Assembly: GCA_014379625.1 (NCBI GenBank)
Contig: JACMLJ010000071.1
Location: 50,756-114,755, forward strand
DNA: 64,000 nt
Origin: Ferruginibacter sp.
GTDB taxonomy: Bacteria > Bacteroidota > Bacteroidia > Chitinophagales > Chitinophagaceae
Direction: 5' to 3'
Made by a program: the position numbers and the translations under genes. Each line of letters begins with the position of its first letter. Within the stretch, counting starts at the first letter, position 1. Below are positions 16,044 through 55,465 of this stretch, in pieces. Under the pieces are notes generated by a model. The model was not told the DNA's origin and did no database searches. It was given only the letters and a program-made list of their open reading frames with translations.

Positions 16044-16346
16044 ATGAATATGAATACGATTAAAATGGAAAGTAAGTTTATAGAAAAAGCGATGAATGCC
16101 ATTGCAGATCCCTGCCGTTTAACCATCCTTCAGGAAATTTCACGTAAAGGGGAGATATGCTGTGGTGATGTCCAGGGGCTTACCGGCCTGTCGCAACCCA
16201 CCTGCTCTCATCATATCAGGTTACTATCAGACAGCGAACTGATTGAATGCAGGAAGGACGGGCGTAACCATTATTTTACGCTGAATAAAAATAACTTTAA
16301 AAAAGTAAGTTCTTTTCTACAAAAATTTCACCAGGAGGAGGTTTAA
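16044..16346 (+). CDS. ArsR-family winged-helix transcriptional regulator
   Basis: DPCRLTILQEISRKGEICCGDVQGLTGLSQPTCSHHIRLLSDSELIECRKDGRNHYFTL; internal ATG preferred over ORF start 15933. Confidence 0.85.
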   Translation: MNMNTIKMESKFIEKAMNAIADPCRLTILQEISRKGEICCGDVQGLTGLSQPTCSHHIRLLSDSELIECRKDGRNHYFTLNKNNFKKVSSFLQKFHQEEV

Positions 16347-16589
16347 TTCGCTTTAGGAGAAAGGTTGATCGTTGATTGGAGGAAGTTTAATTCGTGTTTA
16401 GAGAAAAGTTGATCGTTGATTGGAGGAAGCTTAATTCGTGTTTGGAGAAACGTTGATCGTTGATCGTTGCCTGGAGGAATTTTAATTCGTGTTTGAAGAA
16501 ACGTTGATCGTTGTTAGGAGGAGGTTTAATTCGTTTGAAGAAATGTTGATGGTTGACAGAAAGAAATTTAACTCGTGTTTGGAAAAACG
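16334..16589. repeat. 44-bp tandem repeat array, about 5.7 units
   Basis: Units begin ggagga..tttaattcg at 16334, 16378, 16422 (51 bp), 16473, 16517 (42 bp) and 16559 (partial). Confidence 0.9.
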
Positions 16590-31054: not shown

Positions 31055-31792
31055 TTATAAATTTTGGCGGGATTTAATTTTAAATGCGGCGGATTTATCT
31101 AGGAACCATTCCAGTTCACCCTCAACCGGTTTAATTAACCGCGCCGGAAAATTTTCTATATCGCCTGCACCTTCGAGTATATTTGAAACGGCAGTCGCCT
31201 TTCCTTCTCCGTACACCAGGAAGGCCACGCGGCGGGCCAAATTAATTAAAGGTGCGGTAAAGCTGATCCGGTATGACTGCAGGCTGGTGATAAAAACGGA
31301 TTTTATCGTAGCCGTCTTTTCCTGCAAAATCGCTGTGAAGGGGAATAAGGAAGCCGTATGAGCATTGTCTCCCAACCCCAATAAAACCAGGTCGAAAACT
31401 GGTTCATCTCCTGTAAAATGTTGGTCGATATCTTCCATATATGCAATAGCGGCGTCGGCCGGCGAAAGGGCCGTATTAACCGGGAAAATGTGGTCGGCTT
31501 TAATTTGCAGGGGTTCAAAAAAAACCTGGTTCACCATTTTGAAATTACTTTCAGGGTCGGTTAAGGGAACATACCTTTCATCTCCCAAAAAAAAATACAC
31601 TTTGTTCCAGTCTACCCGTTCCCTGAAAGAGGGGGAAGCCAGTAACCCATATAATTTTGCAGGTGATGATCCGCCTGAAAGCGCTACAGAAAAACGGCCA
31701 TGTTCCGCAATGGATTGATTCGCTGAACCGACAAAATATTCAGCCAGGTTCGCCAGTAGCTCATCAACGGTTTCGAATATATTTAGTTTCAT
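31055..31792 (-). CDS. pgl: 6-phosphogluconolactonase
   Basis: VALSGGSSPAKLYGLL, FFLGDERYVPL; start reassigned to MKLNIFETVDE because the longer ORF translates a repeat. Confidence 0.9.
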   Translation of the reverse strand: MKLNIFETVDELLANLAEYFVGSANQSIAEHGRFSVALSGGSSPAKLYGLLASPSFRERVDWNKVYFFLGDERYVPLTDPESNFKMVNQVFFEPLQIKADHIFPVNTALSPADAAIAYMEDIDQHFTGDEPVFDLVLLGLGDNAHTASLFPFTAILQEKTATIKSVFITSLQSYRISFTAPLINLARRVAFLVYGEGKATAVSNILEGAGDIENFPARLIKPVEGELEWFLDKSAAFKIKSRQNL

Positions 31793-31800
31793 GGATGGTT

Positions 31801-31884
31801 GTTGATGGTTGGTGGTTGTTCGTTGGGTGTTGATGGTTGGGCGTTGTTCGTTGGGCGTTGGGCGTTGGGCGTTGTTCGTTGGGC
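31801..31884. repeat. Twelve-unit heptad array GTTGNNN in the pgl leader
   Basis: gttgatg gttggtg gttgttc gttgggt gttgatg gttgggc gttgttc gttgggc gttgggc gttgggc gttgttc gttgggc, exact period 7. Confidence 0.95.
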
Positions 31885-31906
31885 TTTTATTACGCACCAT
31901 TCATTA

Positions 31907-41543: not shown

Positions 41544-41790
41544 CCAACTGATGATCCATAATGACTTTACCGGAACATGGATTGTATAAAAGTTTATTTA
41601 TAATTTTATTTTCCTTCAATTAAATGATTCCGGCAAAACTACATCAATTACAAATTAATTCAGTTGATTAATTAAGTAATTGCTCCATCACCCGAAAGGA
41701 AAGAAAACCTGCAAAATAAAATTGTTTTATTGGATTATGTAGATGGTTCGCATATGCTTTTCTACATTGGGTATTTCTTTTAGAATGCTA

Positions 41791-41866
41791 ACTTTCGCCT
41801 CCCCAGCCGGCGGGGCTGCGTAACTGCAACGCAGTTGCTTTTGCAGTTACTGGTTTAAAATCGACC
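41791..41866. repeat. Bipartite palindromic element, copy A
   Basis: 34-bp arm identical to copy B (41791-41824); stem gtaactgcaa (41820-41829)/ttgcagttac (41841-41850); right tail tggt..aaaatcga. Confidence 0.8.
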
Positions 41867-41973
41867 ATGGCGCGTTTACCAAAATCATACTAGCACTGCC
41901 TTTGCGACCTATCTACTTAATCCTATTGTTTTAATTATCGTTGGGCCCTGTTGGAGATGCAGTGAATGGAGGA

Positions 41974-54711: not shown

Positions 54712-55128
54712 AAATTATCAGCTCCAATAAAATATTGCAAGCTTCATGTAGAATTTACATCTTTTTATTAATTGATAATAATTTTTATACTGCTGATTTT
54801 TTTATGGTACTTCCTTTTGCGTTTATTCTTAATCGCCGGGTATCCCCATTCAGCAAATGGAGAGGTTGCCCTGTAAATTCACCAAAAGTTTTAGCAGGAT
54901 GTTCAGCAATGTTTTAATACAGGATTGCTTATTTAATGTCTGCAAGAAAACTCTATGATTGACAACTGGTAAAGGTTTTAAAAGATTTTCTATTGCGAAT
55001 CTTTGCTTCACCAACCATCTATTTAAAATCAATTTTTTATTTTTATCCCCTTCAATTATTTGTCGATCATAAAATGGTTCGGCTCATTGCCGGTATTCCT
55101 TTTCTGAATAAGTTAACTTTTGTCAACT

Positions 55129-55296
55129 CGCTACTTTCGCCTCCCCAGCCGGCGGGGCTGCGTAACCGGAACGCCGCTGTTTTTGCTTCTTTCAAAAAAT
55201 TATCCGCCGCGGCTGAATTTTTTGAATGCCGCCTGCGGCGTCAGCGAACCAAAAAAGGCGGCTTATCCGGTTACTGGTGCAGAAAATCGAGTAGCG
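55129..55296. repeat. Bipartite palindromic element, copy B
   Basis: 34-bp arm 55133-55166 identical to copy A; stem gtaaccgga (55162-55170)/tccggttac (55266-55274); outer cgctact (55129-55135)/agtagcg (55290-55296); nested hairpins inside. Confidence 0.85.
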
Positions 55297-55465
55297 GTCA
55301 CATTTAAAATTTCGTAATCATGCAGATCCGTAATATTCCATTTGAGAGCTATCTTTAATTTTCAAATAAGTAACATTCAGCAGGCAAAATTCCCTAAACT
55401 TATTATTTGGAAAGGGTTTCAAAGTTTTCTTGCAAATACTATTTATTACCCGAAAAAATAAGGCA

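Follow-up and report, generated by a model that had tools for sequence, protein, structure and literature searches.

A palindromic cloverleaf module carried within several kinds of gene-less transposons in Chitinophagaceae

Two copies of a palindromic repeat (copies A and B) in a stretch of 64,000 nucleotides from a Ferruginibacter sp. draft genome, analysed at its full length and called the window below, belong to two different transposon families that share a structured core. This core, a cloverleaf-shaped module of about 150 nt, occurs between transposon ends of six or more kinds (classes A–F). By their features the carriers are MITEs, a known kind of element, but they are unusual in that their structured core is swappable and covaries without G-U stages. 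The account that we favour, with moderate confidence, takes the palindromic DNA module for a shared cargo of several unrelated MITEs, which would be moved in trans and have the arms of their cargo renewed at the DNA level.

Two transposons with a common core in the window

The sequence-only reading relied on a 34-bp string, identical at 41791–41824 and 55133–55166, on a stem in copy A formed by GTAACTGCAA (41820–41829) and its complement TTGCAGTTAC (41841–41850), on a different but equally complementary stem in copy B (GTAACCGGA, 55162–55170, with TCCGGTTAC, 55266–55274), and on the continuation TGGT...AAAATCGA after the stem in both copies. String, stems and continuation were all found as described, but the repeat runs on past the borders then quoted for either copy, and the single bipartite element that had been proposed has to be replaced by two transposon families with a core in common. 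Their features in the window are as follows.

41722–41729, no strand: copy A, left 8-bp target-site duplication TTGTTTTA, identical to 41926–41933
41730–41925, plus strand: copy A, whole class A MITE of 196 bp with ends TTGGATTA... / ...TTAATCCTA, defined by aligning seven members of the family that share these ends
41730–41759, plus strand: copy A, left terminal inverted repeat, imperfect, about 25–30 nt, pairing with 41898–41925
41786–41864, plus strand: copy A, cloverleaf module whose long arm has lost its interior (covariance-model match C91:92541-92619; full-length sister copies compared)
41804–41818, plus strand: copy A, hairpin H1 (CAGCC / GGCTG)
41820–41850, plus strand: copy A, stem GTAACTGCAA / TTGCAGTTAC
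41898–41925, minus strand: copy A, right terminal inverted repeat, pairing with 41730–41759
41926–41933, no strand: copy A, right 8-bp target-site duplication TTGTTTTA, identical to 41722–41729
54930–54935, no strand: copy B, left 6-bp target-site duplication TATTTA, identical to 55440–55445
54936–55439, plus strand: copy B, whole class B MITE of 504 bp with ends ATGTCTGCAAGAAAACT / AGTTTTCTTGCAAATAC, from six copies aligned end to end
55129–55290, plus strand: copy B, complete cloverleaf module (covariance-model match C91:105884-106045, 163 bits)
55146–55160, plus strand: copy B, hairpin H1
55162–55274, plus strand: copy B, long arm with P1 (55162–55170 with 55266–55274), P2, P3 and two tip hairpins
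55440–55445, no strand: copy B, right 6-bp target-site duplication TATTTA, identical to 54930–54935

The genes on either side of copy A are both on the minus strand. Four of its class A sisters have perfect 8-bp repeats of their own (TAAATTAA in L003 and L008, TAAATTTT in L004, TAATTTCA in L009). Since a longer hairpin is held by five of the six sister copies, copy A is a truncated one; the internal deletion, which among the seven members it shares with L004, partly produced its perfect 10-bp stem. Copy B is situated between convergent genes, and its 17-bp ends are unrelated to those of copy A. The right ends have diverged in two of the six aligned class B copies, and the duplication in another copy of this class (L021) reads TAATTA. 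A third family of the same genome, class C (L028, L029 and contig ends), has ends GGTTCATC... and an 8-bp duplication in L029.

The complete module comprises ACTTTCGCCTCC, hairpin H1, a long arm built from helices P1, P2 and P3 and ending in two hairpins, and finally ACTGGT...TCGA. Its fold is much more stable than that of shuffles, with z = -6.5 as RNA and z = -7.6 as DNA, and the two complete elements, copies A and B, gave z = -4.1 and -4.8 when folded as DNA. H1, the unpaired segments and the five-helix layout are conserved across many genera; the closing helix varies (GTAAC, GTACC, GTTCC, GTCAC), and in some copies other palindromes stand in place of entire loops. One of these, CCCGATAGCTATCGGG, sits in module loops at six loci (L083, L097, L098, L100, L101 and L104), as if invading the hairpin tips of another palindrome.

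The case for a mobile or structured element had been made dependent on the existence of further copies and on the complementarity of their stems, and on both counts it stands. A 27-mer core, CCTCCCCAGCCGGCGGGGCTGCGTAAC, occurs nine times at 0–2 mismatches in the 5.65-Mb draft genome and not once as a reversed control, and a covariance model built from 12 copies registered 16 in this genome, so that the shared string is not a matter of chance; the stems of the further copies stay complementary. Copies were present in 9 of the 60 genomes searched (the own genome counted), in 42 of 299 sampled Chitinophagaceae genomes representing 27 of 104 genera, and in two of 395 genomes of a class-wide sample, both of them Chitinophagaceae. 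In a named collection the module was met in Ferruginibacter, Terrimonas, one Chitinophaga pinensis MAG and unclassified relatives. Searches of Rfam and of phage, plasmid and viral-contig collections gave no match, and a literature search yielded no description of the repeat.

Some copies stand in tandem. At an orthologous site flanked by groEL and an acyltransferase-like gene, where Ferruginibacter sp. RYN_298 has one module (L100), F. paludis has four with a period of about 500 bp (L235:2100-3900); four others, with a period of about 254 bp, stand between two genes of the single-contig genome G591 (L279:1990-2915) and enclose no cassette-like ORFs. A second long repeat, GTGCTAGAAATTTTCAG...CAATCAAGGCTG...CTTGATTGTAGGATTG followed by TTTTTATTCGCAGCCTTGATT, comes after the module in L278, in the right part of L277 and in L235; it was found in RYN_298 and F. 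paludis and yields spurious ORFs.

Ends of the carriers and their mobility

Terminal inverted repeats were found in all classes from A to F; in other genomes many copies have only weak ones or none. Target-site duplications are of fixed length: 8 bp in class A, 6 bp (TANNTA) in B, 8 bp in C, 10 bp in D (L278), 8 bp in E (three perfect copies in genus g261) and 6 bp, of varying perfection, in class F of Terrimonas NS-102. In the latter genome the ends are almost always paired, about 310 bp apart, with the module between them. For class D an exact empty site is available: the locus is filled in L278 and empty, with a single ATTCACGATT, in L272 of a relative. Together with the further copies and their complementary stems this bears out the earlier view of a non-autonomous mobile, structured element. 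Another candidate pair, L271 versus L277, was not clean, since 169 unmatched bases stand in the module-free site. The flanking genes of copy A were not found in the only further genome in which a class A element was met, and no empty site was obtained for copy A or for copy B.

No transposase was found with class A ends in this genome or in 399 genomes of the family, though drafts may lack it, nor with the solitary class A ends at C39 and C47, which had been considered as possible autonomous copies. Class A-like ends in the 399 genomes belong to other gene-less elements or are single matches. Nor was a transposase found with class F ends in Terrimonas NS-102, where nearly all ends are paired around a module. 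Since none turned up with any of the end types, mobilisation in trans is inferred, and the carriers may be moved by DDE-type transposases that would act from elsewhere on the terminal repeats.

Class A-like ends of genera g249 and g261 enclose other palindromes, in which the covariance model detects no module. Since one module occurs within many ends, and class A-like ends occur with unrelated palindromes, ends and centres appear to combine freely. A further-reaching version, which we put forward only tentatively, regards ends and hairpin centres as separate interchangeable parts and the cloverleaf as a mobile or exchanging DNA palindrome, which would act in folded form, pass between carriers with different transposases and swap whole tips. 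These mini-transposons give the impression of being put together from interchangeable ends and centres, and this bears on the origin of gene-less elements. As individual cases two elements can be mentioned, both gene-less and both having class A-like ends flanked by perfect 8-bp duplications: L326:1500-1745, whose palindrome (TAAAAGAA) is a GTCATTTCGA/GAGAAATC repeat, and L330:1302-1523, whose palindrome (TAACTTCT) is a GGCTTTAGCC repeat.

Covariation, G-U pairs and genomic position

Compensatory base changes are usually read as a sign of selected RNA structure. Here base-pair covariation clearly exceeds chance: in two model-aligned sets both-sided change was registered in 29 and in 40 of the 45 pairs, in each case far more than in shuffles and slid controls. 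When 107 copies were aligned with MAFFT, which takes no account of structure, such change was seen in 39 of the 45 pairs; both-sided cells numbered 710, versus 61–154 for slid partners. G-U, nevertheless, makes up only 1–2% of the module pairs. On the given strand it is not clearly commoner than the mirror-image A-C, which is as common or commoner (G-U/A-C 45/61, 12/23, 27/37 and 55/98), so that the small excess favours the complementary strand; tRNAs, wanted as a yardstick of G-U frequency, were absent from the loci. The comparison of orthologous copies covered only about eight loci, and seven pairs from RYN_298 and F. paludis contained 21 compensated changes, 12 one-sided breaks and not a single G-U intermediate. 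Hairpin tips of orthologous copies often differ as whole blocks, while the module base stays similar. There is a tendency for tips to be like those of other copies within their genome, which in a best-of-many comparison, biased upwards, is only suggestive.

The earlier conclusion that selection or some mechanism acts on the folded form holds in part, selection being one reading only. Since G-U intermediates are lacking and tips differ block-wise, these sequence comparisons favour DNA-level exchange of arms or correction of the palindrome over classic RNA evolution, with selection for foldability possible in addition. The arms would then be renewed by exchange among copies and/or by template-switch palindrome correction, alongside selection for a foldable centre, and such a foldback centre may help to bring the transposon ends together or may shield the element downstream of genes. 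With strong covariation, almost no G-U and block-wise tips, the family-wide data set offers a direct test of whether DNA mechanisms imitate RNA covariation.

Modules are located downstream of genes in one preferred orientation. With genes predicted by a simple ORF caller, 98 contexts were usable, and in 77 of these the gene on the right has its 3' end towards the module. Of 63 modules flanked by genes that run in the same direction, 51 are antisense to these genes (p = 7e-7, an optimistic value, as some orthologous copies were counted twice). With this orientation it would be the complementary strand that is read from the upstream gene, in agreement with the small surplus of A-C over G-U, and it is possible that this strand serves as an RNA structure in 3'-UTRs. 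The orientation preference and the cross-genus conservation of H1 and the unpaired segments point to a function that lies outside the account favoured here.

Known systems and alternative explanations

With MITEs the carriers have in common that they are short, gene-less, multi-copy and intergenic and possess terminal inverted repeats and target-site duplications. They differ in that a single structured core goes with six or more kinds of ends that are unrelated to each other, and in that class A ends carry unrelated palindromic cores in other genera. REP/BIME and REPIN sequences with their RAYT (PMC3733652, PMC3116915) are likewise extragenic palindromes with complementary stem variants, a preference for positions downstream of genes and occasional tandem arrays. 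The module, in contrast, is much larger and cloverleaf-shaped, its carriers have inverted ends with target duplications, and it has no link to Y1. REPs are stem-loops of 20–40 bp with a GTAG or CGTC tag (PMC3733652), whereas no such tag was noted at the borders of the module, and G-T pairing, frequent in GTAG REPs (PMC3733652), has as its counterpart here G-U pairs that are rare. An integron attC site was considered as well and rejected, as it has a conserved AAC/GTT core and gene cassettes: the closing helix of the module varies, and the tandem units of about 500 and 254 bp in F. paludis and in the complete genome G591 hold repeats and no cassette genes.

These differences bear on the idea, in our view highly improbable, that the repeat is of the REP/BIME type and that a REP-associated tyrosine (Y1) transposase mobilises it in the form of single-stranded DNA. 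The palindromic, extragenic, multi-copy and sometimes tandem character of the repeat would fit it, and Y1 transposases are present in this genome. Against it speak the size of the module, the several unrelated kinds of inverted ends with their target-site duplications, and the distribution of Y1 genes: relatives commonly have them whether or not they carry the module, and one relative has a module but no Y1 match. The partner transposase of this type suggested earlier is not supported, since over 60 relatives the presence of Y1 does not track the module.

More weight, though still that of an unlikely alternative, falls to a transcribed structured RNA, i.e. a 3'-UTR element or small RNA, probably of the complementary strand, which would be selected for its fold and merely spread by the transposon ends. 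Like RNAs of the Rfam type, the module shows strong compensatory change within a fixed secondary structure of five helices, and both its orientation relative to neighbouring genes and the slight A-C excess would suit such an RNA. Yet G-U pairs and intermediates are hardly to be found, no Rfam family corresponds to it, transposon ends surround the unit, and entire loops are swapped for other palindromes. The opposite extreme, neutral palindromic repeats free of structural selection, whose covariation would come wholly from gene conversion among copies and quasi-palindrome template switching, seems to us slightly less credible still. Quasi-palindrome (template-switch) mutation has been described for yeast (PMC3820800) and is similarly a DNA mechanism by which both arms of an inverted repeat are made to agree in one step; in our case it is inferred from the comparison of copies only, and exchange among copies explains part of the changes too. 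The block-wise differences of tips, the lack of intermediates, the loops replaced by palindromes such as CCCGATAGCTATCGGG and the orthologous site with one module in RYN_298 and four in F. paludis all speak for neutral repeats. Against such repeats stand the conservation of H1, the unpaired segments and the five-helix layout across many genera, and the bias in orientation, by which selection or directed insertion is implied. The account preferred here, a ~150-nt palindromic cloverleaf that would be the common cargo of several unrelated gene-less MITEs in Chitinophagaceae, combines renewal of the arms at the DNA level with selection for a centre able to fold.

Other repeats of the window are an imperfect tandem repeat with 44–51-bp spacing at 16320–16534 (GTTGATCGTTGATTGGAGGAAG...) and a degenerate one with 14-bp units at 31782–31890 (TGGTTGTTGATGG / TGGGCGTTGTTCG).
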